Below are positions 7,789-40,621 of a stretch of DNA of 64,000 nucleotides, piece by piece (the first letter of the stretch is position 1; every line of letters begins with the position of its first letter). Position numbers and translations under genes: made by a program. Source of the DNA: Halosolutus halophilus (lineage in GTDB: Archaea > Halobacteriota > Halobacteria > Halobacteriales > Natrialbaceae); the NCBI RefSeq assembly GCF_022869805.1, contig NZ_CP094974.1:1922001-1986000 (forward strand). The letters run 5' to 3'. Under the pieces are notes generated by a model. That model had not been told where the DNA came from and ran no database searches. It was given only the letters and a program-made list of their open reading frames with translations.

Positions 7789-9120
7789 TCAGTCCACTGC
7801 TGGATCGTCGATATCTCTTTCGTGGACCCATACCGTCGAAATTCGGGTCCCCTCGACGCTCGTTACCTCAACGACGTGACCGTCGATCTTGACGCGGTCG
7901 CCGCGTTCCGGCGCGCGGTTGAGTCGTCCCAGCACCAGCCCACCGATCGTTTCAACCGCTTCGCTATCGAAGTCGCCATCGAGGGCGTCAGAAACTTTCG
8001 ACAATGGGACTCCGCCGTCAATGTCGTACCCCCCATCGTCACGCTGGCGTATCGAATGTTCGCGCTCATCGAGATCAAACCCGTCCCGAAGGTCCCCGAC
8101 GAGGGCCTCGACGATGTCTTCGACCGTCGCAATCCCCTCGAACGCTCCCCACTCGTCGATGACTGCGGCCATCTGCTGGCGATCCTCCCTGAACTGTATC
8201 AGGAGATCGCTAATTGCCATCGTCTCCGGGACGATGAGAATCTCACGGGCGATGTCACCGACCATCTCGGCATCCCCATTGTCCACCTCTACTCGCAGCA
8301 CGTCCTTGACATCTACGAATCCGACCACTTGGTCACCGTCATTGGCATCCAGAACCGGATAGCGCGTGTGTCCGGCCTCTAAGACGATCGAATGAAGTTC
8401 AGATAGTGTGGCATCCGCCGGAACGCTCACCACGTCCGGTCGTGGGACCATGACCTCCCGTACCACGGTGTCGTCAAGATCGAAGACGCGCTCGATCATC
8501 GTCACTTCTGCCACGTCAATGTCCCCGCCCTCGCCGGATCGTGTTAGTACCCGAAGGAGCTCCCGCTCACCGAGTGTCTCATCCGTTTCGGAAGCGGGTG
8601 GCACACCGAGCGACTTCGTGAACGCGTTGGCCGCCCCGTTGAAGACGACAATTCCCGGATAGAGTATGAAATAAAAGGCCTTCATGGGCGGGGCGAGGAA
8701 CAGCGAGAGTCGCTCGGTCTTGGCAATTGCGATCGTCTTCGGCGCGAGTTCACCGAAGACGACGTGGAGAAACGTGATGATACTAAAGCCGATTGCGAAC
8801 GCGACGAGATGGATGAGATCTGCCGGGAGAACCGATTCCAGTACGGGTTCGATGAGCGCCGCCACTGCGGGTTCGCCGACCCATCCCAACCCGAGAGATG
8901 CGATGGTGATGCCGAGTTGTGTCGTGGCGAGGTAGTTGTCGAGGTTCGTCATCACTTCTTGGAGCGTTCCCGAGCCGGGCCGCCCCTCCTCGACGAGTTG
9001 GTCAACCGACGTTCCCCGAATCCGAACGAAGGCGAACTCTGCTGCGACAAAAAAGCCGTTGAGCACCACGAGTAACAGCGCTAAGACGATTTGTGCCGCC
9101 GAGAGCGCGACGTTTACCAT
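7789..9120 (-). CDS. CNNM/CorC-family membrane protein (HlyC/CorC type)
   Basis: I chose the ATG at 9120, which begins MVNVALSAAQIVLALLLVVL just like family members. An open frame extends to an ATG at 9312, but its 64 extra residues are polar and unlike the family. The 443-residue product has an N-terminal DUF21 membrane domain with NGFFVAAEFAFVRIR (about residues 1-190). A CBS-pair region follows (about 205-330, with MVPRPDVVSVPADATL and VVGFVDVKDVLR), then a C-terminal CorC/HlyC transporter-associated domain. Known relatives are implicated in magnesium or cobalt efflux and metal homeostasis. It stands alone between repeat copies. Confidence 0.85.
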   Translation of the reverse strand: MVNVALSAAQIVLALLLVVLNGFFVAAEFAFVRIRGTSVDQLVEEGRPGSGTLQEVMTNLDNYLATTQLGITIASLGLGWVGEPAVAALIEPVLESVLPADLIHLVAFAIGFSIITFLHVVFGELAPKTIAIAKTERLSLFLAPPMKAFYFILYPGIVVFNGAANAFTKSLGVPPASETDETLGERELLRVLTRSGEGGDIDVAEVTMIERVFDLDDTVVREVMVPRPDVVSVPADATLSELHSIVLEAGHTRYPVLDANDGDQVVGFVDVKDVLRVEVDNGDAEMVGDIAREILIVPETMAISDLLIQFREDRQQMAAVIDEWGAFEGIATVEDIVEALVGDLRDGFDLDEREHSIRQRDDGGYDIDGGVPLSKVSDALDGDFDSEAVETIGGLVLGRLNRAPERGDRVKIDGHVVEVTSVEGTRISTVWVHERDIDDPAVD

Positions 9121-27373: not shown

Positions 27374-28414
27374 TCAGTCGTCGGTTCCGTTCGCGGCGGC
27401 CCGGTCCCCCTGGGCGTCGGTCTCGCCCCCGTCGGCGGCGGGCGTGCTGGAAGCCGGCTCCTCGCGGCGCTGGCGCATGTAGCGCGCTCGCAGGACGTTC
27501 CCGTACATCGAGAGCACGAGTCCGAGCAGGAGGACGAAGATTCCGATGTTGATCCCGATCGTCCGCAGGACGCTACCCTCGCCGAACACGAGCCCGTCCG
27601 GCACCGGATAGCCGCCGTACTCGAGACTGGCTATGAGGAAGCTGACGATGCCGACGACGACCAGCACGCCCACGACGTTCGTCGCCCACCGCCACGAGGG
27701 CCGCAGCTGGAGGCGCTCGATCCCGGTCGTCTCGTACTCCTCGGGATCGCCGTGGAAGTTCGGCGTCCGGTCTTTCGGTAGGAACGCCTTCATCTCGACC
27801 GGGTAAAAGGCGGGGTGGAAGCCGTGTTCGAAGGTGTGGAACATCACCCCCATCAGCATGATGACTCCGAGCAGGCCGTGGAACGCGACGAACGCCATCA
27901 CGACCGACTGGGAGTTGTAGACGTCGATCAGCCACGTCTTCCGCCAGATGAGCAGCCCCGAGAGCATCAAGAGGACCAGTTCGATCGTGAAGATGGCGAC
28001 GACGCCCTTGCCGACGTAGGAGAGCAGCGGCACCTCGTCGGCCTTGTAGCCGGCGAACTGGCGGGCGGCCGGGTGGCGTTCGTCGGCCCGGCCGAGCGCG
28101 AACTTGACGTCCTGGACGAACGCCGCCGTATCGGCCCGGAGATCGGGCAGGACCTCGCCGAAGTTCGATCGACTGCTCGATCGGATGAGCATGTAGGGCA
28201 CCCAGAACCCCGTCAGCAGGATCAGCGTGAAGCCGGCGAGTCGGTGGATCGAGAGCACGCCCTCGTTGCCGCCCATCAGTTCGATCAGCCACCACAGTTC
28301 CGTGTTGAAGGCGATCGAGTAGCCGGTGAAGAACAGGACGAACACCGTCAGCGCCAGTAGCGAGTGGAACATCGTGGTGACCCGCGAGAACTTGCCGTGG
28401 TCGAGGTTCGTCAC
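27374..28414 (-). CDS. Cytochrome b subunit of the formate-dehydrogenase-type complex
   Basis: The 346-residue protein has five to six membrane helices. The histidines expected to bind two b-type hemes lie in TTMFHSLLALTVFVLFFTGY, LSIHRLAGFTLILLTGFWVP, MAFVAFHGLLGVIMLMGVMF and the following HTFEHGFHPAFYP. It would carry electrons from the iron-sulfur subunit into the membrane quinone pool. It is the last gene of the minus-strand operon, its ATG overlapping the stop of the 28411-29085 gene by four bases. The C-terminal 35 residues are a soluble tail. Confidence 0.85.
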   Translation of the reverse strand: MTNLDHGKFSRVTTMFHSLLALTVFVLFFTGYSIAFNTELWWLIELMGGNEGVLSIHRLAGFTLILLTGFWVPYMLIRSSSRSNFGEVLPDLRADTAAFVQDVKFALGRADERHPAARQFAGYKADEVPLLSYVGKGVVAIFTIELVLLMLSGLLIWRKTWLIDVYNSQSVVMAFVAFHGLLGVIMLMGVMFHTFEHGFHPAFYPVEMKAFLPKDRTPNFHGDPEEYETTGIERLQLRPSWRWATNVVGVLVVVGIVSFLIASLEYGGYPVPDGLVFGEGSVLRTIGINIGIFVLLLGLVLSMYGNVLRARYMRQRREEPASSTPAADGGETDAQGDRAAANGTDD

Positions 28415-29085
28415 GGACGGTCACCTCCGCTGGATGGATCGGTCGAACCCTCGTCGGGCGATTCACGAGCTTCGTCGTGGGTCCTCGCGCCGCCGTCGGT
28501 CGCGGCGGCCGTCTCCCGCGTGCGCGTCCTCGTCCCCGGCGGCTGCATCCGCGCTGCCAGTCGGCGGAACGCGGCCCAGTGGATGAACAGGATCACGAGG
28601 ATGAAGATACCCAGGACGACGTCCGCGAAGTGGACCAGCACGATCAGCCACTCGAGTACCGGTTCCGTGTTGCCGACGACCCAGTCCGCAGCGACGCCGC
28701 CGCCCTCGACGCTGGGGCGGACGCGCAGGACGTTCTCGAAGAACGGGGCCTGGCTGGTGACGAGCGCGATCGATCCGACCGAGAGGACGACCCCGATCAG
28801 GACGCCGATCCAGAAGGCGGCGCGGTCGGAGAGGCCGCCGGTCTCCGTTTCGGTCTCGGTTTCGCGCGGTGCGACTCGCTCGTCCGCCGCGCTCTCTCGG
28901 GACCGATCGTCGCTGTAGCCGCCGTTTGCCTGTCCCTCGGGAGAAGGGGCGTCGGGCCCGTCGCCGTCGGGACGATCGGCGTCGGTCTCGTGATCGGTCG
29001 GTTCGTCTACGGGCGAGTCGTCGCTCGGGTCGGTCGGCCCGCCGGCGCGATCGTCGGGATCGTCGGGTGGTCGGTCGTCACTCAT
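28411..29085 (-). CDS. Small membrane subunit of the formate-dehydrogenase-type complex
   Basis: I chose the ATG at 29085 (MSDDRPPDDPDDRAGGPTDP), which overlaps the upstream iron-sulfur gene by eight bases. The 224-residue product begins with about 90 disordered acidic residues. Two membrane helices follow (about 95-115, AAFWIGVLIGVVLSVGSIAL, and 150-178, LIVLVHFADVVLGIFILVIL). A polar tail closes the protein. I do not recognise a family; the location between beta and cytochrome subunits argues for a structural or heme-supporting subunit (there is a lone VHFADVV histidine). Confidence 0.65.
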   Translation of the reverse strand: MSDDRPPDDPDDRAGGPTDPSDDSPVDEPTDHETDADRPDGDGPDAPSPEGQANGGYSDDRSRESAADERVAPRETETETETGGLSDRAAFWIGVLIGVVLSVGSIALVTSQAPFFENVLRVRPSVEGGGVAADWVVGNTEPVLEWLIVLVHFADVVLGIFILVILFIHWAAFRRLAARMQPPGTRTRTRETAAATDGGARTHDEARESPDEGSTDPSSGGDRP

Positions 29086-29761
29086 TGTCCTGGAAGTTCC
29101 GGGCGTCCTCCTCGCCGAAGATGATTTCCATGGCCTCGTCGTTGAAGAACGAGCCGCTGCCGCGTTTCTCGAGTTCGTCCGCGATCTCTCCGGCGCTGCC
29201 CACGAGGATCGCGTTGGTCGCACACTCCTCTGCGCAGGCAGGCCCCTTCCCGGCCTCCTGTCGCGGCCGACAGCCGGTACACTTGTCCATGATGCCGCCG
29301 GTGCCGAAGATCTGGGCCGTGCCGTCGTCGCTGTCGGGGAACTGCGGCGCGCCGAACGGACACCCCGAGAGGCAGTACTGGCAGCCCACGCAGAGATCGT
29401 CCGTCACCGTCACGAAACCGTCGTCTTCCTTCTGCAGGGCGTTCGTCGGACAGACCGACACGCAGGGCGCGTTCTCGCAGTGGTAACACTGCATCGGAAG
29501 GCTCGTCTCGCCGGGGTTCTCGCCGGCGACCAGCCGATCGGTCTTGCTGGCGTTCTCGCCCTGGGGACCCGCGGTCCCCTCGGCCATCGTCGTGATGTCG
29601 ATGCGCTGGTTCTGGACCTCCCGGTCCCAGGTGCGCTTGCAGGCGACGACGCAGCCCCCGCAGTCGATACAGGCCTCGACGTCGGGGAAGATCCGCATCC
29701 CCTCGCCGGTGCTCATCACGCCCTGACTCAGTACCTCGCCGACTGGCTCCTCCTGTGTCAT
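29078..29761 (-). CDS. Iron-sulfur (beta) subunit, 4Fe-4S dicluster type
   Basis: The 227-residue protein has the four cysteine groups of the FdhB/HybA/DmsB family: ACIDCGGCVVACKRTW, QCYHCENAPCVSVCPTNAL, DLCVGCQYCLSGCPFGAPQF and DKCTGCRPRQEAGKGPAC. It conducts electrons from the molybdenum subunit to the cytochrome. Its ATG overlaps the catalytic subunit stop by four bases. No signal peptide is present, so it is probably exported by hitch-hiking on the Tat signal of the catalytic subunit. Confidence 0.9.
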   Translation of the reverse strand: MTQEEPVGEVLSQGVMSTGEGMRIFPDVEACIDCGGCVVACKRTWDREVQNQRIDITTMAEGTAGPQGENASKTDRLVAGENPGETSLPMQCYHCENAPCVSVCPTNALQKEDDGFVTVTDDLCVGCQYCLSGCPFGAPQFPDSDDGTAQIFGTGGIMDKCTGCRPRQEAGKGPACAEECATNAILVGSAGEIADELEKRGSGSFFNDEAMEIIFGEEDARNFQDNE

Positions 29762-32700
29762 AGCTGCTCACCTCCGTCCATGAGATCCCACTCACGGACG
29801 TCGTACTTCTTCTGCGCGCCGAGTCCGTGCTCGTCCTGCGGGTAGTCGATGAACTCCAGGTCCAGGTCGTCGACCACCTGCTGGGTGGCCTTCTGGACGT
29901 GGACGACGCCCGACTTCGTCTCCTGCATCTGGGTCTCGGCGTCGAACCCGCTCGGGGTGATGACGTTCGCGCTCTCCCCGATCGCCAGCGGCTCGGTCCC
30001 GTCGGGCCAGTTGCCGGAGCGGTTCTCGCCGTGGAAGACCCCGCCCCAGTGGTAGGGGAGGAAGATCTCCTCGCCGTTGACCCGATTGGTCACCTTGGCC
30101 TTCACGAGGATCGATCCCTTGTCGGCCGACGTGACGACGACGTAGTCGTCGCCGCCGACGACGTCGAGATTCTCCGCGAGACCGGGGCTGATCTCCGCGT
30201 ACATGTGCGGCTGGAGATCGGCGGTGTACTCGTTGTTTCGCGTCTCCGCGCCGCCGCCCTGGTGTTCGACCTGCCGACCGGAGGTCATGATCACGGTCCG
30301 GCCGCCCTCGGCGTCGCTGCCGAGTTCCGTGTGGACCGCCTCGGTCGCCCGCTGCTGGACCGTCGCGTTGTTCTGGTCGAGTCGCCAGAAGTTGACCTGT
30401 TCGCCGTTGGCCGGCCACTCCTCGACGAGGTCCGGGCGCGGGCTCTCGACGGGTTCCCGGTGGACCGGCACCGTATCGAGGAAGTTCCAGACGACCGCTC
30501 GCGCCTTCCCGCGGCCCGTCGGCGGATCCGGCTGTGCGTAGTCGTACTCCTCGTACTCGTCGGGATCGACGTCGACGTCGGCGTACTGGTCGGCGACCTC
30601 CTGAGCCGCGTCGTACACCGACGACTCCTCGTCGAGCGCCATCTCCACCGGCGTCGTCTGGGTCGACGCGTTGGCTCGATCGTCGGGCAGGATCGTCGCG
30701 TAGCCCGGGTACGACGGGACGCCGTTGATCTCCTGGTCGTCCCACCACGGAGCCTCGAACGAGCCGGCGATCAGGTCGAGGCCGTCCTCGCCGCCCTGGT
30801 CGTAGGTCTCCTGCATCGGGTAGTCCTTGTCGACGTTCATCTCCTCCCACTCGTCCGGAGTCGGTGCCGTCGTCCCCCAGTTCTCGCGGAAGTCGTGGCC
30901 GCCGTCTCGCGGGTCGGCCTCCTTCGTCCAGATGATCGGCGAGCCGGGGTGGTCGTCGCCCCAGTAGGGCCAGGGTAAGGACCAGTAGTCGCCGTCGACC
31001 GGCAGCCCCTCGGTGTCCGCCCGGAGGGTCTCCGTGCTGAACGCCCAGTCGTACTCCTGGTGCTGCTGGAGCTTTTCCGGGGACTGCTGGTAGCCGATCG
31101 AGCGGACGCCGAGGTTGATCTCCCGGAGGGCGTCCTCGTAGGAGCTCTGTCCGTTGTGGATCTCGGGGCCGGAGCCCCAGTCGAAGTGCTCGCCGAAGCC
31201 CATCTCGCGGGCCAGTTCCTGCATGATCCGGAGGTCGGGCCGCGAGTTGTGCGCCGGCGGGCCGACGGCCTGGCTCCACTGGACCGATCGGTGGGAGTTC
31301 GTCACCGATCGGACGTGCTCGTACTGGCTGGAGGCCGGCAACAGGAGCACGTCGGCGTCGTCGGGGAGCGTTCCCGCAACCGCCGGGAAGACGTCGACGA
31401 CGACCATGAGGTCCAGGTTCTCCATGGCCTGTTTCATCCGGTCCATCTCGCTGATGGAGTTGGCCGAGTGGCCCCAGAAGAACGCCATCTTCAGCGGCTC
31501 CGGCTGGTAGAGTTCCGACTCGAGGAGTCGGTCCTCCTGCTGGAGCGCCGCTTCGTACCACCGGGCGACGGTTAGCCCTTTCTGGAACATCAGCGACTGC
31601 GGATCGGGTTCTTCTATCGGCGCGTCTTCGCTCTCCTCGAGGCCGTCCTCCTCGCCCTCCTGTTCGGCCTCGCTCTCGGTGTCCTCCCCCTCTTCGTCCT
31701 CGGTGGATTCCTCCTCCTCGACCTGAGCCGGCACCTGGAGGGCGTTCCACATCTCGTCGGGCATCATCTCGAACCGCTCGTACAGGTCCGCGAAGGAGAT
31801 ACTGCCGCTGGTCCACGGGCTCTCGGTCCAGACCTCCGTCCAGTGTTCCCACGAGCCCGGCGAGTCGACGCCGTAGTAGCCGGGCAGAATGCTCGCGTCG
31901 ACGCCGAGGTCCGTCGCTCCCTGGACGTTCGCGTGGCCGCGCATGACCTGCAGGCCGCCGCCCGATCGGGCCGCGCTCCCCGTCGCGAGACTGAACAGCG
32001 CGTACGAGCGGATGTTCTGGGTCCCGTTGTTGTGCTGGGTGCCGCCCATCGCCCACTCGACCTGGATACGGGGCTTGTTCTCGATGATCAGGTCGCCGAT
32101 GTCTTCGAGTTGCTCGACGTCGAGCCAGGTGATGTCGGCGACCGTCTCGCGGTCGTACTGGTCGAGTTCCGTCGCGGCGTCCGGCCACCCGAATACGCGG
32201 CCGTCGAGGAACTCGTCGTCGAGTTCGCCCTGCTCGCGGACGTAGTTGAGCAGCCCCATCACCAGCGCGACGTCCGTCCCGGGCCGCATCCGGTAGTAGT
32301 AATCGGCGTGGGCCGACGTCTTCGTGTACCGCGGGTCGATCGAGACGATCGTCCCGCCGCGGGCCTGCCCCTCCAGGATGTGCTGCATCGCGATCGGGTG
32401 CGATTCGGCGGGATTCTGCCCGAGGATGATGAGCAGGTCGAAGTTACGGTAGTCGTTGATCGTGTTCGTCATCGCGCCGAAGCCCCAGGTGTTGGCCAGC
32501 CCGGTGACCGTCGGGGAGTGACAGATCCGCGCCTGATGGTCGACGTTATTGGTTCCCATGAACGCCGCCAGTTTCCGAATGGCGTAAGCCTCCTCGTTGG
32601 CGTGGTGGGCGCTTCCCAGCAGCATCACGCTCTCGCGGCTGTACTCGTCGATCGTCTCCTGCCAGGTGTCTACGATCTCCTGGTAGGCCTCGTTCCAGGA

Positions 32701-33075
32701 GACCTTCTGCCACTCGCCGTCCTCCTTGCGCATCGGGTGTTTGAGCCGCTTGGGCGAGTGTTCGGTCTCGAGGATGCCGGCCCCCTTCGAACAGAGCGAG
32801 CCGTTGTTGATCGGGTTCTCGTGCCAGGGTTCCATCGCGGTGAAGGAGTCGCCCTCTTTCACCGCTTTGAACCCGCAGCCGACGGCACAGTAGTTACAGA
32901 TCACCTTCGACGTGTCCGCGTCGGCGACGACGCCGTCCTCCTCGTCCTCCTGTGCTCCGCCGAGGACGTGCCCGGTGACGCCACCGCCGAGGAACAGTCC
33001 GCCGGCGAGCGCACTCGCTTTCACGAACGAGCGCCGATCGAGGTCGATCGTCACCGGTTCCCGGTCGGTACTCAT
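29758..33075 (-). CDS. Tat-exported molybdopterin oxidoreductase, formate dehydrogenase type
   Basis: The 1105-residue catalytic subunit has a twin-arginine signal (RRSFVKASALAGGLFLGG). An N-terminal 4Fe-4S site has C60, C63, C67 and C95 (CNYCAVGCGFK..SLCSKG). The segment QARICHSPTVTGLANTWGFG places Cys185 followed by His186 exactly where formate dehydrogenases carry Sec/Cys-His, so formate is the likely substrate, though other C1 donors are possible. A low-complexity acidic loop of about 45 residues (EEEESTEDEEGEDTESEAEQ) near residue 445 is a halophilic insertion. The molybdopterin-dinucleotide binding domain is at the C-terminus. It heads an operon of four overlapping genes. Confidence 0.9.
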   Translation of the reverse strand: MSTDREPVTIDLDRRSFVKASALAGGLFLGGGVTGHVLGGAQEDEEDGVVADADTSKVICNYCAVGCGFKAVKEGDSFTAMEPWHENPINNGSLCSKGAGILETEHSPKRLKHPMRKEDGEWQKVSWNEAYQEIVDTWQETIDEYSRESVMLLGSAHHANEEAYAIRKLAAFMGTNNVDHQARICHSPTVTGLANTWGFGAMTNTINDYRNFDLLIILGQNPAESHPIAMQHILEGQARGGTIVSIDPRYTKTSAHADYYYRMRPGTDVALVMGLLNYVREQGELDDEFLDGRVFGWPDAATELDQYDRETVADITWLDVEQLEDIGDLIIENKPRIQVEWAMGGTQHNNGTQNIRSYALFSLATGSAARSGGGLQVMRGHANVQGATDLGVDASILPGYYGVDSPGSWEHWTEVWTESPWTSGSISFADLYERFEMMPDEMWNALQVPAQVEEEESTEDEEGEDTESEAEQEGEEDGLEESEDAPIEEPDPQSLMFQKGLTVARWYEAALQQEDRLLESELYQPEPLKMAFFWGHSANSISEMDRMKQAMENLDLMVVVDVFPAVAGTLPDDADVLLLPASSQYEHVRSVTNSHRSVQWSQAVGPPAHNSRPDLRIMQELAREMGFGEHFDWGSGPEIHNGQSSYEDALREINLGVRSIGYQQSPEKLQQHQEYDWAFSTETLRADTEGLPVDGDYWSLPWPYWGDDHPGSPIIWTKEADPRDGGHDFRENWGTTAPTPDEWEEMNVDKDYPMQETYDQGGEDGLDLIAGSFEAPWWDDQEINGVPSYPGYATILPDDRANASTQTTPVEMALDEESSVYDAAQEVADQYADVDVDPDEYEEYDYAQPDPPTGRGKARAVVWNFLDTVPVHREPVESPRPDLVEEWPANGEQVNFWRLDQNNATVQQRATEAVHTELGSDAEGGRTVIMTSGRQVEHQGGGAETRNNEYTADLQPHMYAEISPGLAENLDVVGGDDYVVVTSADKGSILVKAKVTNRVNGEEIFLPYHWGGVFHGENRSGNWPDGTEPLAIGESANVITPSGFDAETQMQETKSGVVHVQKATQQVVDDLDLEFIDYPQDEHGLGAQKKYDVREWDLMDGGEQL

Positions 33076-33336: not shown

Positions 33337-35514
33337 ATGAGAGTCGGGAGCTTCGTCTGTTCGTGTGCTGACACCTGTGACGTCGATCTCGAGGGGGTCC
33401 GGGAGGGGATCGAGGACGTCGAGGTCGCGGCGAGTTCGAGTCTGCTCTGTCAGGACGGACTCCCCGCGATGGAGGAGGTGGTCGACGAGTACGACCTCGA
33501 CCAGTTGATCGTGACCTGTCCCGAGCGAGGCGCCCAGCGGAAAATCGAACGCGTCGCCGAGCAACGGGGGTTACATCCCGACGCGGTCTCGTTCGTCGAC
33601 CAGCGCGAGAGCGCCGGCTGGGTTCACGGCGAGGCCGGAGCGACGGCCAAGACGGCCCGCATGGTCAACGCCCGGTACGCCGGTCTCGAGGCGGAGTCCG
33701 TCTCCCGATCGATCTCGCGGGAGGCGGGCGACAGCGTCGCGGTCGTCGCGGATCCGGAGACGGCCGCAGCACTCTCGGGAGAGGCCGAGGTCACCCTGAT
33801 CGCGGACGGGAACGAGTACGTCGATGCGGCTGCGAATCTGGACGAGGTCACGATCGAGCGCGGGCGCGTCGTCGACGTCGACGGGCGCTACGGCGACTTC
33901 TCCGTCCGTCTCGAGGCGCAGGTAACCGCGGACTGTATCTCCTGCATGAAGTGCGTCCACGAGGGCCCGGACGGCGCGGTGACGCGCTACCCGGTCGATA
34001 TCGACCCCGACGCGCCCGAGGGGGAGTGGACCGACGTCTGTCCCACCGACGCGATCGATCTCGAGGGGGCCGAGCGGACCCTCGCGTTCGACCAGATCGT
34101 CTACCCGGCCGCCGGTCGCCGGACCCGGGGCGGGCGGATCGGCTTCTACACGGCTCCGATCGACGCGGCGACGATCTCGGCCGTCAAAGACCTGCTCGGC
34201 GGCATCGAGAAACCGGACCACCTCGACCTCGAGATGGACGTCTGCGCGGCCGGGAACTCTAGTCAGCCGGGCTGTAACGAGTGCGTCGAGGCCTGTCCCC
34301 ACGACGCCGTCGAGCGATCGCGCATCGACGAGGTCGAGTTCCACAAGGAGGCCTGTCAGAACTGCGGCGCTTGCACCAGCGCCTGTCCGACTGGCGCGAC
34401 GAGGCTCCGCGAACCGTCGAACGAACGACTCGCCCGCGAGGTCGAGGCCCTCCTCCGGCCCACCGACGAGGAGGGCGGCTGGGTCCTCGATCGATCGAGA
34501 TCGGACGTCGACACGGCGATCGTCGCGTTCGTCTGCTCGGAACGGGCGGACGACGCGCTGGCCGAGTACGGCCGCCTGGCCGCTGCGGGCAAGGCCGAGG
34601 TCGAGTACCCGCCGATCCTCCCCGTCCACGTGAACTGTACCGACACCGTCGGCGAGGCCCACGCGATGCACGCGCTGGCCTGCGGCGCGGACGGGGTCGC
34701 GATCGTCGGCTGCGGCGGCGACTGTCTGCACTCCGGCCCCGATCCGAAAGCAGACCTCGTGGCCCGGCTCAACCGGGCCGCGACGGACCTCGGGCTGAGC
34801 GAGCGGGTCGGTTTCTTCGCGCCCGATCCCGACGATCACGGCGCGTTCGTCGAAGAAATCTCGACGTTCGCCGCCGAACTGGACGACTCGTCGATCCCCG
34901 CCGGCGAGCACGAGGCCACCGGCGGCATCGACAGCGCGGAACCACGTTCCGCGAACAGCCGGACGCAGTCCGGCGACGCCGATCGGGAGACCCCGCCGTT
35001 CGACAGTCACGGCTGGACGTTAGAGAGCGTCCGTGCGATCGTCGAGCACGTCGACCCCGATCGGGACGTGATCCGCGGCCTGAAAGACTTCGGACGGATG
35101 GACGTCGCGGAGGGCTGTACGCTCACGCCGACCTGCTCCAACCTCTGTCCGACCGACGCGATCCGGCGCGACGAGGAGACGGCGACGCTCGAGTTCAACC
35201 ACGAGCAGTGCGTCAACTGCGGAACCTGTGAAGAGGGCTGTATCGAGGACGTCATCACCATGCGCGACGGCCTCGACCTCTCCCTGCTCCCGGAGCGCCG
35301 CGACGGCGATCCGTGGATCGAGGTGTTCGAGGGCTCGATGCGCGAGTGTGCACGCTGTGGAACGCCGTTCACGAGCGAGGAGTCCGTCGAGAAGATCCAG
35401 TCGGAAGTCGGCGATCTCGTCGCCGACCTCGCGCCGAGCGCGTCGGGGACTATCTTCGACTACTGTGGCGACTGTCGCGCCACGCTCCTGTACGATCGAG
35501 GTGGGAACGAATGA
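33337..35514 (+). CDS. HdrA/MvhD-like multi-cluster polyferredoxin fusion
   Basis: The 725-residue protein has several parts. Residues 1-120 resemble the N-terminal HdrA domain (VGSFVCSCADTCDVDLEGVR, then QLIVTCPERGAQRKIERVAE). A degenerate Rossmann-like stretch follows (SVAVVADPETAAALSG, no GxGxxG, so FAD binding is doubtful). Ferredoxin clusters lie at about 200-240 (CISCMKCVHEGP..CPTDAI) and 310-355 (GCNECVEACPHDA, CQNCGACTSACPTGA). An MvhD-like domain spans about 385-500 (IVAFVCSERADDALAEYGRL, CTDTVGEAHAMHALACGADG). Another ferredoxin pair follows (CSNLCPTDAI, CVNCGTCEEGC), then a zinc ribbon. It is divergent from the formate dehydrogenase operon and probably exchanges electrons between cytoplasmic carriers and that complex. 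Confidence 0.8.
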   Translation: MRVGSFVCSCADTCDVDLEGVREGIEDVEVAASSSLLCQDGLPAMEEVVDEYDLDQLIVTCPERGAQRKIERVAEQRGLHPDAVSFVDQRESAGWVHGEAGATAKTARMVNARYAGLEAESVSRSISREAGDSVAVVADPETAAALSGEAEVTLIADGNEYVDAAANLDEVTIERGRVVDVDGRYGDFSVRLEAQVTADCISCMKCVHEGPDGAVTRYPVDIDPDAPEGEWTDVCPTDAIDLEGAERTLAFDQIVYPAAGRRTRGGRIGFYTAPIDAATISAVKDLLGGIEKPDHLDLEMDVCAAGNSSQPGCNECVEACPHDAVERSRIDEVEFHKEACQNCGACTSACPTGATRLREPSNERLAREVEALLRPTDEEGGWVLDRSRSDVDTAIVAFVCSERADDALAEYGRLAAAGKAEVEYPPILPVHVNCTDTVGEAHAMHALACGADGVAIVGCGGDCLHSGPDPKADLVARLNRAATDLGLSERVGFFAPDPDDHGAFVEEISTFAAELDDSSIPAGEHEATGGIDSAEPRSANSRTQSGDADRETPPFDSHGWTLESVRAIVEHVDPDRDVIRGLKDFGRMDVAEGCTLTPTCSNLCPTDAIRRDEETATLEFNHEQCVNCGTCEEGCIEDVITMRDGLDLSLLPERRDGDPWIEVFEGSMRECARCGTPFTSEESVEKIQSEVGDLVADLAPSASGTIFDYCGDCRATLLYDRGGNE

Positions 35515-36143
35515 GCGTCGATCAGGAGGCGCTGTACGACGCCAGACTCGAACTCGTGAACTTCTTGGTCGACGCGTTCGCGGACGTCCCGACCGAGTCG
35601 TTCGTCGAGACGCTGCTGACCGGCGAGATCCGGCTTCCGGAAGAGAGCGTCGGCGCGGACCTCGATCGGGGATTCGACGCACTCGAGACGTTCGTCGAGG
35701 CGAACGCGGACCGCGATCCCGGGGCCGTCCGGGACGAACTGGAACGGGAGTTCACGCGCCTGTTCGTCGGTCCGCGACCGCAGATCATGGCACACGAGAC
35801 CTACTACCGCGAGGACACCGACTTCCGCGGGTCGGGGCTGGCACAGGTCGAGGCGAGTTACGGTGCTGCCGGCTGGTCGCCGCCCGAGGAGTATCCCGAG
35901 GAGAACGATTACGTCGCCGTAGAACTCGCCTTCCTACGGCACCTGATCCGAAAGCAGCGCCGGGGGGACGAGGAGACCTTCGGCTACCAGCGCGTCTTCC
36001 ACGAGGAGCACCTCTCGGCGTGGATCGACGATCTCGCCGCCGACGTCCGCGAGGAGACCGACGATCGGTTCTACGAAGCAGTGGCGGCGATCCTGCAGGG
36101 ATACGTCGCGTTCGAGGAAGAGATCGCGATGCAGATGGCCTGA
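35511..36143 (+). CDS. TorD/DmsD-family maturation chaperone
   Basis: I chose the ATG at 35511, which overlaps the previous stop by four bases. The 210-residue all-helical protein has the family core: DELEREFTRLFVGPRPQIMA, HETYYREDTDFRGSGLAQVE, YVAVELAFLRHLIRKQ and FHEEHLSAWIDDLA. Such chaperones bind Tat signals of molybdoenzymes and hold them until cofactor loading. Here the client should be the 29758-33075 subunit, encoded across the divergent promoter. The family EPxDH-type motif is altered to PPEEYPEENDYVAVE. Confidence 0.85.
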   Translation: MSVDQEALYDARLELVNFLVDAFADVPTESFVETLLTGEIRLPEESVGADLDRGFDALETFVEANADRDPGAVRDELEREFTRLFVGPRPQIMAHETYYREDTDFRGSGLAQVEASYGAAGWSPPEEYPEENDYVAVELAFLRHLIRKQRRGDEETFGYQRVFHEEHLSAWIDDLAADVREETDDRFYEAVAAILQGYVAFEEEIAMQMA

Positions 36144-36511: not shown

Positions 36512-36865
36512 TCACCGTCCGGGACGGGGATCGTCGGACCAGTCCGGGCCCGATCCGCCCTCGTCCTCGAGAAACGCGCGAGCGAAGAGGTCGACGTGCA
36601 ACGCGAGCACGTCCGCCGGATCGAGCCCGTACGCGTCGGCCTGTCGCTGGAGATACGCCTCCAGATCGTCGCTCGGTTCGTGACGGATCGTCTCACCGTC
36701 GACCTCGAAGGAGACCTCGCTACTTCCGGCGACGAGGTGTTCGATCTCGAGCAGCGCCTGTTCGGCCTTGGTCTCGAGCGCCCGTTCCTCGTCCACGAGC
36801 CGATCGTCGCCCCAGTCGGCCGCGGCCTCCCGGAACCGATCGCTGACGGTGATCGAGAGCGTCAT
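36512..36865 (-). CDS. Conserved hypothetical haloarchaeal protein
   Basis: The 117-residue soluble protein (MTLSITVSDRFREAAADWGD) has a beta segment at 50-62 (EVSFEVDGETIRHEPSDD). Helices around it include ERALETKAEQALLEIEHLVA and LEAYLQRQADAYGLDPADVL. No catalytic motif is visible. Its ATG overlaps the stop of the 36862-37008 gene by four bases, so the two are translated together. Confidence 0.65.
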   Translation of the reverse strand: MTLSITVSDRFREAAADWGDDRLVDEERALETKAEQALLEIEHLVAGSSEVSFEVDGETIRHEPSDDLEAYLQRQADAYGLDPADVLALHVDLFARAFLEDEGGSGPDWSDDPRPGR

Positions 36866-37048: not shown

Positions 37049-37306
37049 CTACTCGGGCGGCCACTCCTCGGGTGCCGGGTCCGGTTCGCCGAGCGCACCG
37101 AACGCGAGCAGGATCAGTCCGAGGAACGCGGCCATCACGATCACGCCCATCAGGCCGCCGAAGCCGTGCTGTCCGACCCAGTTGCCGGGACCGAGACCCC
37201 CCATCTGGTTGACGACGTTGAGTCCGATCAGCACGGTCCAGCCCGCTACGAACAGCAGTCCGAACGCGATCAGCGGATTGTGGTCGATTGCAGTTCGGAT
37301 CCCCAT
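37049..37306 (-). CDS. Small membrane protein with two helices (85 aa)
   Basis: I chose the ATG at 37306 (MGIRTAIDHNPLIAFGLLFV). Two membrane helices (about 11-30 and 53-75) are joined by NQMGGLGPGNWVGQHGFGG. The soluble tail is short and proline-rich (EPDPAPEEWPPE). No family is recognised. It lies upstream, on the same strand, of the small 48-aa gene. Confidence 0.6.
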   Translation of the reverse strand: MGIRTAIDHNPLIAFGLLFVAGWTVLIGLNVVNQMGGLGPGNWVGQHGFGGLMGVIVMAAFLGLILLAFGALGEPDPAPEEWPPE

Positions 37307-37435: not shown

Positions 37436-38200
37436 TCACGCCGCGTCGTCGTCCGACGCGAGGTTCCAGTCGGCTTTCGCGGCCGCCTCCGCGAACGGGA
37501 CGAACTCCCAGTCGGCGTTTTCGGCGATCGGTTCGTCCTCGCCCTCCAGTCCGACGACGACCAGCCGATCGGCGTAGAACATGGAGTTGCGATCGATCTC
37601 GGCGAGGCGTTCGGCCGGGGCCGTCCCGGTGCCGTTGAAGAAGTCCGCGTCGATCCCGCGGTCGCGCTGGAACTTCTGTATCACGTGTGCGGGGACGTCA
37701 CCGACGATGCCGATCCAGTCGGCCCACGTCGCGCCCGCGAAGACCCGGTCCGGTCGTTCGAGTTTCCGAACGGCGTCGTACGTGATCGCCATCGTCATGT
37801 CGTCGGCACCGCCGCCGTGGGGACCAGACGCTTCGTCGGTACCCATCGCTCGGGGCGTCGAGGGATCGGCGCCGCCCGCTCTCTCACCGGTCGATCGTGA
37901 TTCGTCTCCGCTGCTTCCTGCGGCCGGAATTCCGGCCGGCATCCTGTCGCCCGTTTTCGGGACGTGCGGTGCCGGGGCGTCCGAAGGGTCGACACTCTCG
38001 GCGGTCCCCGCCGCGTCGTCGGCCGATTCCTCACGGTCCCGACCCCGATCGGCCGCCGTCGACCGCCGAGAGGAAGCAGCGTCCGGTTCGGGGTCCGCAC
38101 CGCCGTCGTCGCGCCAGATCCAGTTCCCGTCGTTCCCGTCCGGTTCGTCGTCCTCGTCGGATTCGGTTTCGACGTCGTCGAGATCGATCCGATCAGTCAT
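37436..38200 (-). CDS. DUF7124-like protein following the AOR gene
   Basis: The 254-residue protein has a long disordered acidic/serine-rich N-terminal half (1-130). The compact C-terminal domain of about 115 residues includes MTMAITYDAVRKLERPDRVF, VIQKFQRDRGIDADFFNGTG and NSMFYADRLVVVGLEGEDEP. Its start overlaps the stop of the upstream AOR gene by eight bases, so they form one transcript. I recall this domain as a haloarchaeal family often placed with tungsten/molybdenum enzymes. The family name is uncertain and its role unknown. Confidence 0.65.
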   Translation of the reverse strand: MTDRIDLDDVETESDEDDEPDGNDGNWIWRDDGGADPEPDAASSRRSTAADRGRDREESADDAAGTAESVDPSDAPAPHVPKTGDRMPAGIPAAGSSGDESRSTGERAGGADPSTPRAMGTDEASGPHGGGADDMTMAITYDAVRKLERPDRVFAGATWADWIGIVGDVPAHVIQKFQRDRGIDADFFNGTGTAPAERLAEIDRNSMFYADRLVVVGLEGEDEPIAENADWEFVPFAEAAAKADWNLASDDDAA

Positions 38201-40004
38201 CGTCGGTGGCCTCCGTGACGTGATCGCCTCCGGGCCCGTCCGACGCGGGAACGGGCGTCGCGTCGTCGACGACCGACGCCAGTCCGAGTCGACGAACGGT
38301 CTCCCGGGTCGGTCGCCCCTCCTCGTTCCAGCCCCGGTATCGGTAGTACTGATCGAGCAGCGACTCGAACTCCGCCGGATCGATCGCGTTCCCGTCGGCG
38401 GGGCCGTCCGCGATCGGGTCGAGCATGGGGGCTGGCAGGTCGTCGTCGGCCCGGTCGAACCCCTCGCGCACGTTAAACAGTCGGATCAGCGTCCAGACCC
38501 GTTCGCCCACGGTCGCGAGGGCGTCCCGATCGTACGGCCGGCCCACGGCGGCGAGCCACTCGGCCCCGAGATCGGCCAGCGCGTCCTCGAGGAAGTCGTC
38601 GACGATGAGGCACCAGAGGAGGGCGCGACGGTTCTGTTCGCCGACGACGGCGGCGACTCTGGCCCGATCCGTCGGCCACGATCGGCCGAGCGCCTCGGAC
38701 TCGACGGGCCGGGCGCGACGGTGACAGGCACCGCGATCGCTCGTCGCGTAGGCGAGTGCCATCGTCTCGGCACCGCGAGGGTCGTACGACGACAGGTCCA
38801 TCCCCTTCACGGTCGGGATCAGGTCTTCGCCGCCGAACTCGCGGACTGCACCGTCGATTCCGTCCGCGAGGGCGTCGCCGAGCGGCGTCTCCCGGGTCGC
38901 GATCTCGCGGATCAGACGCCTCGCGGCCTCGTAGTCGCCGAACGCGAGGTCCCGGTCGATTATTCCTTCCTCGCTCGCGCGGACGGCCCAGGCCACGGCG
39001 TTCCCGGCCGTGATGACGTCGAGCGCGAGCCGGTCGCAGATCGCCCCGAGCGCGGTGACGGCGTCGAAGTCGTCGATCCCGAGGCCGGCCCCGAGGACGA
39101 TCGGCGTCGCACCTCTGGGGACGCTGTCGCCCTCCTCGCTCTCGATGCGGTAGCCGCCGGGAACGGACTCGTCCTCGCGCTCGCGTTCGCTGGCGTTCTC
39201 GCGGGCCGCCTCGATGCCGATCTCGCTCGCGCCGTCGAACTGCCCCTCTTGCCAGCCCCGGGTCGGCAGGACGCCGACCTCGTTCGCGAAGTCGATCGTT
39301 TCGAGCGTCTCGCTCGCACGCTGCCAGCGGCCGGCGTCGCTCTCGGCGAACTCCCGTTCGTAGCGCTCGCGGAGGGCGGCGTGCTCGTCGAGGGGGTCTC
39401 CGCGGGCGACGATCGCCTTGAGCCGCTTCGATCCCATCACGGTCCCGGCACCGCCGCGTCCGGCGTGGTGGTCGCCGCCGTCGGAGGCGATCGTCGCGTA
39501 CTGGACGCCGTGCTCTCCCGCGGGACCGATGCAGGCGACGGCCGCGTCGGGGAACGCCTCGCAGGTCGCTTCGGCGTCGTACCCCCAGTAGTCGGCCGCG
39601 GATTCGAGCCGTCCGTCGCCGTCGTCGATTTCGAGGACGACCGGCTCGTCCGATCGACCGGTCACGAGGATCCCCATGTGAGCGCCGAGCGACCCGGCGA
39701 GGCGATCGGGGAAGCTCCCGCCGCCGTAGGAGTCGAGAAAGGCACCGGTCAGCGGCGACTTCGTTATCGCCGCGTACCGGGCCTCGCCGGGCGTCAGTCC
39801 GGAGACCGGTCCGAGCATGAACAGCAGGGCGTTTTCGGGTGCCAGCGGGTCCGTCTCCGCCTCGAGTTCCTCGTAGAGATATCTCGCGCCGAGTCCTTTC
39901 CCCCCGACGTAGGCCTCGAGCCACGCCTCCGGGATCCGCTCGCTGGTAACGGTCCGGGTCGTGCAGTCGACCCGGAGGAGGCGTCCCGGAGTTTCCCGTG
40001 CCAT
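38193..40004 (-). CDS. Aldehyde:ferredoxin oxidoreductase paralogue lacking cluster cysteines
   Basis: The 603-residue protein has the AOR N-terminal domain (PGRLLRVDCTTRTVTSERIP, YVGGKGLGARYLYEELEAET) and the pterin-binding core (LLFMLGPVSGLTPGEARYAA, TKSPLTGAFLDSYGGGSFPD, ASDGGDHHAGRGGAGTVMGS). At about 265-300, where family members have CxxCxxxC for the 4Fe-4S cluster, this one has an acidic serine-rich stretch with no cysteine. The distal cysteine may remain in RRALLWCLIVDDFLEDALAD. Unless electrons leave another way it would not use ferredoxin normally. It is co-transcribed with the DUF7124-like gene. Confidence 0.8.
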   Translation of the reverse strand: MARETPGRLLRVDCTTRTVTSERIPEAWLEAYVGGKGLGARYLYEELEAETDPLAPENALLFMLGPVSGLTPGEARYAAITKSPLTGAFLDSYGGGSFPDRLAGSLGAHMGILVTGRSDEPVVLEIDDGDGRLESAADYWGYDAEATCEAFPDAAVACIGPAGEHGVQYATIASDGGDHHAGRGGAGTVMGSKRLKAIVARGDPLDEHAALRERYEREFAESDAGRWQRASETLETIDFANEVGVLPTRGWQEGQFDGASEIGIEAARENASEREREDESVPGGYRIESEEGDSVPRGATPIVLGAGLGIDDFDAVTALGAICDRLALDVITAGNAVAWAVRASEEGIIDRDLAFGDYEAARRLIREIATRETPLGDALADGIDGAVREFGGEDLIPTVKGMDLSSYDPRGAETMALAYATSDRGACHRRARPVESEALGRSWPTDRARVAAVVGEQNRRALLWCLIVDDFLEDALADLGAEWLAAVGRPYDRDALATVGERVWTLIRLFNVREGFDRADDDLPAPMLDPIADGPADGNAIDPAEFESLLDQYYRYRGWNEEGRPTRETVRRLGLASVVDDATPVPASDGPGGDHVTEATDDD

Positions 40005-40213: not shown

Positions 40214-40621
40214 ATGCGAATGGAACTACGGGTCTGCAATCACTGTTACGAGGGGACCCACGGGAACGACTCGAAGACGGCCATCACGCGGGACATGGTC
40301 GCGTGTGCCGAGGTGGTCCGGGAGTACAAGGACCTGATCGGGGTCGAGGCGCTGTACATCGCCAGAGTCGAGGAAGGCGACGTCGGCGGCGCGGAGGCGC
40401 TTCCGGCGATCGCGGCCCGGATCGAGGAGGATCAGGTGACCCTCGCGGATACGCAACTCGTGATGGAAGACGGGGACGGCAACCTGCTCGTCTACCCCGA
40501 ACCCGAAGACGTCCTCGAGGTCCTGACGCGGAACATCGACCAGATCGACGACCAGACCCGTCAGGACGTCACCGTCGAACTCTCCCCCGAGAGTTCGGAA
40601 CTGCTGGTCGGATCGCGGTGA
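40214..40621 (+). CDS. Hypothetical protein upstream of an alcohol dehydrogenase gene
   Basis: The 135-residue soluble protein starts MRMELRVCNHCYEGTHGNDS with a CxxC and a histidine. It has a Rossmann-like beta-alpha pattern (MVACAEVVREYKDLIGVEAL, YIARVEEGDVGGAEALPAIA). A second ATG two codons on is an alternative start. No family is recognised. It is followed 62 bp later by the alcohol dehydrogenase gene on the same strand. An operon is possible. Confidence 0.6.
   Translation: MRMELRVCNHCYEGTHGNDSKTAITRDMVACAEVVREYKDLIGVEALYIARVEEGDVGGAEALPAIAARIEEDQVTLADTQLVMEDGDGNLLVYPEPEDVLEVLTRNIDQIDDQTRQDVTVELSPESSELLVGSR

Follow-up and report, generated by a model that had tools for sequence, protein, structure and literature searches.

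The 64,000-nucleotide stretch of the Halosolutus halophilus genome analyzed here (the window) encodes, at positions 33,337–35,514 of the forward strand, a 725-residue fusion of a flavin-less HdrA, an MvhD domain, and a HycF-like module, hereafter HFD725. We think it fairly probable that HFD725 serves in the cytoplasm, together with a TorD-type chaperone, as an accessory protein for the precursor of a molybdenum or tungsten (Mo/W) enzyme that is then exported by the Tat pathway. The main rival is a role in electron relay. A preliminary description of the gene, made from the sequence, had left relay and maturation side by side; the comparative evidence favors maturation because the TorD-type chaperone is the constant neighbor of an exported enzyme that, like its membrane anchor, differs between loci. 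In the literature we searched, which included DUF3305/DUF3306, SreD, and fdhT, we found no functional study of a protein of this family (HFD) and no published description of an HdrA–MvhD–HycF make-up.

Domain Architecture of HFD725

The HFD725 reading frame begins with ATG, has no internal stop, and occurs once in the 5.06-Mb single-contig genome; databases name members of the family ‘hydrogenase iron-sulfur subunit’ or ‘4Fe-4S binding protein’. Sequence searches and an AlphaFold model, built on 48 relatives (mean pLDDT 86.1, pTM 0.83), agree on an architecture consisting of a degenerate HdrA (residues 1–375), an MvhD/FlpD domain (residues 395–515), and a HycF-like module (residues 586–720). 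In the model, residues 1–375 match whole HdrA chains with structural Z scores of 16.8–18.6 over 320–368 residues.

The degenerate HdrA has three parts, all encoded on the forward strand. (i) An HdrA-type N-terminal domain (residues 1–120; 33,337–33,696), identified by conservation and by phmmer comparison with HdrA chains, which aligns residues 2–112; the VCxC motif, C38, and C61 are conserved, and C8, C10, C38, and C61 match the ligands of the HdrA N-terminal cluster. (ii) A remnant of the flavin (TrxR-like) domain (residues 125–291; 33,709–34,209), recognized by structure match and motif comparison, which in the model matches HdrA residues 143–587 over only about 162–165 residues and contains one inserted 4Fe-4S motif (C200/C203/C206/C235). 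(iii) The HdrA C-terminal two-cluster ferredoxin (residues 296–375; 34,222–34,461), found by domain search, phmmer, conservation, and structure, with cysteines C303, C313, C316, C320, C340, C343, C346, and C350.

The MvhD/FlpD domain (34,519–34,881, forward strand) scores 64.1 bits against Pfam PF02662 (cut-off 22.3), and its modeled fold resembles MvhD chains in Foldseek, with TM scores of 0.68–0.76 of target; its cysteines are C400, C434, C459, and C463. A disordered linker separates it from the HycF-like module (35,092–35,496, forward strand), which was recognized from sequence, conservation, and a VIA match of the model to HycF (7z0t_F; Z 10.5, 126 of 136 residues) and comprises two 4Fe-4S motifs followed by a four-cysteine metal site, C671/C674/C710/C713. 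Ferredoxin motifs thus lie at about residues 200–235, 303–350, and 594–635, in addition to the N-terminal cysteine set. Counting FlpD, seven clusters and one four-cysteine metal site are predicted, a count that rests on cysteine motifs because the predicted structure contains no cofactors. Domain searches confirmed the HdrA-type N-terminus and MvhD domain named in the preliminary description, and its estimate of at least four 4Fe-4S regions is borne out. The terminal ‘zinc ribbon’ proposed there is this four-cysteine metal site and belongs to the HycF-type module.

Decay of the Flavin Site and Conservation of Cysteines

Where HdrA has the GxGxxG motif, HFD725 reads VVADPETAAAL. In a motif comparison, no haloarchaeal member of the family kept GxGxxG, and these proteins have a VVGDPETAxxL-like sequence in its place. 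Two relatives from another archaeal family retain VGGGAVG and the remaining relatives are intermediate, so the ancestor of the family probably resembled HdrA, and its flavin site later decayed. HdrA-type flavin-based bifurcation by HFD725, already doubted on account of the eroded FAD motif, can be rejected: the motif and half of the domain are gone. HFD725 would also illustrate the possible decay of a flavin-based bifurcating subunit into a plain electron wire.

Nearly all cysteines of HFD725 fall in columns conserved across 66 close relatives, and most are also conserved across the wider family, far beyond chance. The universally kept part among aligned relatives is the HdrA C-terminal ferredoxin pair (C303–C350) together with the HycF-like module (C594–C713), and the C671/C674/C710/C713 metal site is present in every aligned relative. 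The FlpD cysteines C400/C434/C459/C463 occur in 29 of 29 main haloarchaeal members, are partly kept in other archaea, and are absent from divergent haloarchaeal members and from two aligned bacterial relatives, which also lack parts of the N-terminal or middle clusters. By this alignment, the FlpD and N-terminal cysteines appear dispensable in divergent members. In HFD725, T597 (window positions 35,125–35,127) stands where the first C-terminal motif would have its second cysteine. This threonine is invariant in the 29 main-clade haloarchaeal members, whereas the divergent members and those from other archaea and bacteria keep the cysteine. This pattern suggests that, in the main haloarchaeal clade, the cluster may be of the 3Fe-4S or a site-differentiated type.

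The Formate Dehydrogenase Locus

The gene for the TorD/NarJ-type chaperone (210 aa; 35,511–36,143, forward strand; PF02613 91.9 bits, gathering score 22.2) follows HFD725 directly, its start overlapping the HFD725 stop by 4 bp (ATGA), and the co-transcription with a chaperone noted earlier holds. Also as described before, HFD725 is transcribed divergently from an exported molybdoenzyme, FdhA (1105 aa; 29,758–33,075, reverse strand), which has a DRRSF Tat signal and a RICHS active-site Cys-His motif. Its score of 435.7 bits against TIGR01591 is below the equivalog cut-off of 666.25; TIGR01591 is still its best model, and FdhA is a putative formate dehydrogenase with formate as its putative substrate. 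Downstream on the same strand lie FdhB, an FDH3-beta-like iron–sulfur subunit with four clusters (29,078–29,761; NF038355 133 bits, below the cut-off of 240), FdhX, a membrane protein conserved in loci of this type, with an uncertain start codon (28,411–29,079), and FdhC, a cytochrome b561-type membrane subunit (27,374–28,414; PF01292 65.4 bits).

Beyond torD, the reverse strand encodes two proteins conserved by synteny, of 117 aa (36,512–36,865) and 85 aa (37,049–37,306; hydrophobic), a 254-aa DUF7124 paralogue (37,436–38,200; PF23439), and an aldehyde ferredoxin oxidoreductase (AOR) family protein (38,193–40,004; PF01314/PF02730); a syntenic 135-aa protein is encoded on the forward strand (40,214–40,621). 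In our genome scan, the long form of the DUF7124 paralogue and the close version (≥65% identity) of the 135-aa protein occurred only in genomes with HFD725 and a formate dehydrogenase. No hydrogenase or antiporter genes were seen in the conserved haloarchaeal locus, and HdrB/HdrC partner genes are not apparent in this conserved neighborhood. HFD725 has no signal peptide, from which we infer a cytoplasmic location; since its partner enzymes are exported, HFD725 probably does not belong to the finished enzyme outside the cell.

Distribution and Partner Enzymes

The HFD family is present in 108 of 391 haloarchaeal genomes. Full-length relatives occur in other Halobacteriota, at 27–32% identity, and in Proteobacteria, at about 25%. 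Among 77 distinct HFD genes, 58 are accompanied by a TorD-type gene in the same orientation no more than 300 bp away, and a Mo enzyme gene lies within 10 kb of 67. The partners belong to at least three kinds of exported Mo/W enzymes, whose membrane anchors differ or are unrelated: (i) FdhA type 1 with FdhB, FdhX, and a b561-type cytochrome subunit, as in the window; (ii) FdhA type 2 with an NrfD-like subunit; and (iii) a PhsA-like enzyme with NrfD. Twin-arginine motifs can be recognized in almost all catalytic subunits of the partners, and the Cys-His active-site motif was found in most partner enzymes examined. The constant companion is the chaperone and not one electron acceptor or anchor.

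Biosynthetic genes accompany several loci. PhsA-type operons have the order Mo enzyme–FeS–NrfD–TorD–HFD–ApbC/Mrp (Fe-S carrier)–MobA, with MobB added in one case, and MobA lies near 12 of 53 HFD loci. YqeC, a selenium cofactor biosynthesis family, is found near 14 of 53 haloarchaeal FDH/AOR loci (L034, L036, L039, and L079 included). Proteobacteria share a DUF3305–DUF3306–4Fe4S–TorD–fdhABC block; in Variovorax, the order is DUF3305–DUF3306–4Fe4S protein–TorD–fdhA–FeS–fdhC–moeA. An 83-aa ORF in the Variovorax fdh operon (L131:15,669–15,920) is labeled ‘CAE beta-lactamase, 100%’ by the resistance prediction of a plasmid database, which looks like a mislabel judging by its place and size.

Not every locus follows this pattern. 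In some FDH2-type loci, HFD is 5.9–8 kb from torD, and at four loci (L034, L060, L066, and L143) neither TorD nor a Mo enzyme is near HFD. In the unlinked haloarchaeal cases checked genome-wide (G257, G318, G360, G378, and, for a near relative of L034, G298), the genome encodes a formate dehydrogenase at another site. At one locus of an archaeal relative (L126, 6042–11,107), HFD heads a run of genes for a Tat-exported NiFe hydrogenase and its Hyp maturation proteins, with no molybdoenzyme or TorD, which suggests that the role of the family is not Mo-specific. Orthologues without a linked molybdoenzyme, taken in the preliminary description as evidence against its reading, thus exist: four are unlinked, and a fifth is linked to another exported metalloenzyme. 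These loci all count against maturation with TorD, as do exported FDH copies in two genomes (G298 and G264) that adjoin TorD with no adjacent HFD.

The AOR-family gene is at the center of the relay alternative, in which HFD725 would be a soluble protein carrying electrons between a cytoplasmic oxidoreductase (the AOR-family neighbor or a cytoplasmic FDH pool) and ferredoxin. Models for such a role are BamC/E/F with BamB and WorS with WorL. In 34 of 53 loci, an AOR gene is found no more than a few kb away, and in L045 and L136 it comes directly after HFD. Both the MvhD and the HdrA part are modules for electron transfer, and the C-terminal region of HFD725 matches 6x1o_B, the Fe-S subunit of a solved oxidoreductase, which we take to be the AOR-family enzyme WOR5. 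AOR was thus a serious lead as a Bam-like electron partner, but it was demoted because the loci examined show it to be optional and confined to haloarchaea: it is not evident in PhsA-type operons, in non-haloarchaeal archaeal loci, or in annotated bacterial loci. It is frequent in haloarchaea and a less specific companion, present in 37 of 40 HFD-positive genomes and also in 14 of 40 HFD-negative ones, while TorD and the exported enzyme are the constant partners. We regard the relay as possible and rather unlikely.

Membrane anchors bear on another alternative, in which HFD725 would receive, on the cytoplasmic side, electrons that leave the exported enzyme and cross the membrane via the cytochrome b subunit, and would pass them to a low-potential cytoplasmic acceptor. 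An analogous path has been proposed for Isp1/Isp2 hydrogenases, and both the b561-type FdhC of type-1 loci and the exported NiFe hydrogenase paired with HFD in L126 would fit it. The HFD–TorD pair, however, also occurs with NrfD-type anchors, a class that is not generally known to carry haem across the membrane; cytochrome b is not a constant partner, and no flavin is left for splitting electrons. Such a path seems improbable for HFD725.

Co-Occurrence, Co-Evolution, and the Absence of FdhD

We sampled 80 haloarchaeal genomes, 40 HFD-positive and 40 HFD-negative (the window genome is G000). FdhA of type 1 or 2 was found in 36/40 HFD-positive genomes versus 1/40 HFD-negative genomes. The lone exception, G052, was a false negative of the first search and is rejected as an FdhA genome without HFD, because it has a divergent 607-aa HFD between torD and AOR; hence, no genome in the sample has FdhA without HFD. 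The G052 FdhA gene (L136:7755–11,731) is interrupted by a transposase-like ORF at 8125–9117, and the downstream torD, HFD, and AOR reading frames stay open. Three of the four HFD-positive genomes without FdhA have a PhsA-type operon; in the remaining one, G160, an HFD with a shortened N-terminus lies next to Mrp.

HFD clades follow the partner enzyme and not host taxonomy. Mapping partner-enzyme labels on the HFD tree takes six changes, with a minimum of five and a mean of 24.9 for shuffled labels. Of the two HFD copies in G029, one falls in the FDH2 clade and the other in the PhsA clade.

In the formate dehydrogenases that have been studied well, sulfuration by FdhD is considered essential. 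A search that detects FdhD (PF02634) in E. coli, M. jannaschii, and S. acidocaldarius gave no match in any of the 80 haloarchaeal genomes sampled, and FdhE (PF04216) turned up in none of the 59 HFD-carrying genomes tested. With 36 of the 40 HFD-positive genomes carrying a formate dehydrogenase, haloarchaea are a large-scale case of formate dehydrogenase without FdhD. Since haloarchaeal FdhA keeps the Cys-His motif, as in other formate dehydrogenases, its cofactor would be expected to bear a sulfido ligand (PMC10609526); the same review names FDH-expressing organisms without fdhD as a caveat. The idea that HFD is a straight replacement for FdhD is weakened, and HFD is not simply its substitute, because FdhD is present in 17 of 18 non-haloarchaeal archaeal HFD carriers. 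In the literature searched, we found no published link between the absence of FdhD/FdhE in haloarchaea and an HFD-type protein.

A Proposed Role in Maturation

In the maturation role we favor, HFD725 would be a flavin-less electron wire acting with the TorD-type chaperone on the FdhA, or FdhAB, precursor before export. The HycF-like module, together with MvhD where present, may dock on immature FdhA/FdhB, which is plausible because parts of these two kinds are neighbors of formate dehydrogenase or hydrogenase subunits in the Hdr and formate hydrogenlyase complexes. The HdrA-type ferredoxin pair would link these docking modules to a cytoplasmic source of electrons or Fe-S clusters. HFD725 would then most likely provide the electrons, the Fe-S clusters, or both, that are needed for completion and reductive activation of the clusters and cofactor of FdhA, while TorD holds the signal peptide or the enzyme, a division of labor comparable to that of NapF serving NapA. 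Both the docking and the delivered chemistry are our inference, and the conserved redox wiring fits an electron-transfer role equally well.

The conserved metal site also invites a reading as a quality-control sensor, in which HFD725 and TorD would check whether electrons pass through the precursor and then release it to Tat, with the HycF-type site as a redox-sensitive contact. In HycF, the corresponding quartet (CxxC-x34-CPxC) lies at the interface with the formate dehydrogenase FdhF and is proposed to adjust FdhF binding according to redox state (PMC9474812), and in the HFD family the site is conserved in every aligned relative. A seven-cluster protein nevertheless seems elaborate for proofreading alone, and the sensor overlaps with maturation; we give it little credence.

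A broader version of the maturation role is speculative. HFD725 and TorD might represent a distinct class of machinery that matures exported Mo/W enzymes, completing and reductively activating (perhaps sulfurating) the cofactor where FdhD and FdhE are absent, which is the case in all haloarchaea sampled, and having arisen by stripping flavin from an HdrA–MvhD bifurcator and adding a HycF-type FDH docking module. With HFD725 and its chaperone, the finishing of these formate dehydrogenases becomes directly testable in a genetically tractable haloarchaeon.

Comparison with Known Systems

HFD725 shares with HdrA and HdrA2 the order of N-terminal cluster domain, flavin domain (a remnant in HFD725), C-terminal ferredoxin, and MvhD, which is fused in HdrA2. 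HdrA2 is its best NCBIfam match, with a score far below the HdrA cut-offs. Unlike HdrA, HFD725 has a flavin domain cut to ~165 residues, without GxGxxG and with one inserted cluster instead of two, an additional HycF-like C-terminus, and a non-methanogen host. With HycF, it shares a pair of ferredoxin clusters and, after them, a CxxC-x34/35-CxxC metal site; the x35 spacing of HFD725 (C671xxC674-x35-C710xxC713) is taken straight from the translation. It differs from HycF in its fusion to HdrA–MvhD, in the cysteine-to-threonine change in one haloarchaeal cluster, and in a locus with no hydrogenlyase complex.

Likeness to FdhE, a rubredoxin-like accessory of exported FDH with metal-binding CxxC pairs (PMC10609526), is functional only, as a Pfam search found no FdhE domain in HFD725. 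The nearest functional precedent is NapF, a cytoplasmic protein with several 4Fe-4S motifs implicated in the maturation of a Tat-exported Mo enzyme, NapA, on which it acts before export (PMC10609526). NapF is small and has four clusters, unlike HFD725, which scores 40.4 bits against TIGR00402 (equivalog cut-off 102.2). The nearest positional precedent, likened by operon description, is SreD, a polyferredoxin encoded in the sreABCDE sulfur reductase operon beside the sreE chaperone gene and a Tat-exported Mo enzyme (PMC3189178). Hypothetical ferredoxins are frequent (43%) in TorD–fdh operons (PMC4464133), and these bacterial ‘fer4’ or hypothetical ferredoxins occupy the same type of locus as HFD725, with ~25% full-length homology; the two aligned bacterial members differ in the FlpD, N-terminal, and middle cysteines described above. 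In archaea and bacteria alike, no other extra genes accompany the enzyme as consistently as those for an HFD725-type protein and a chaperone.
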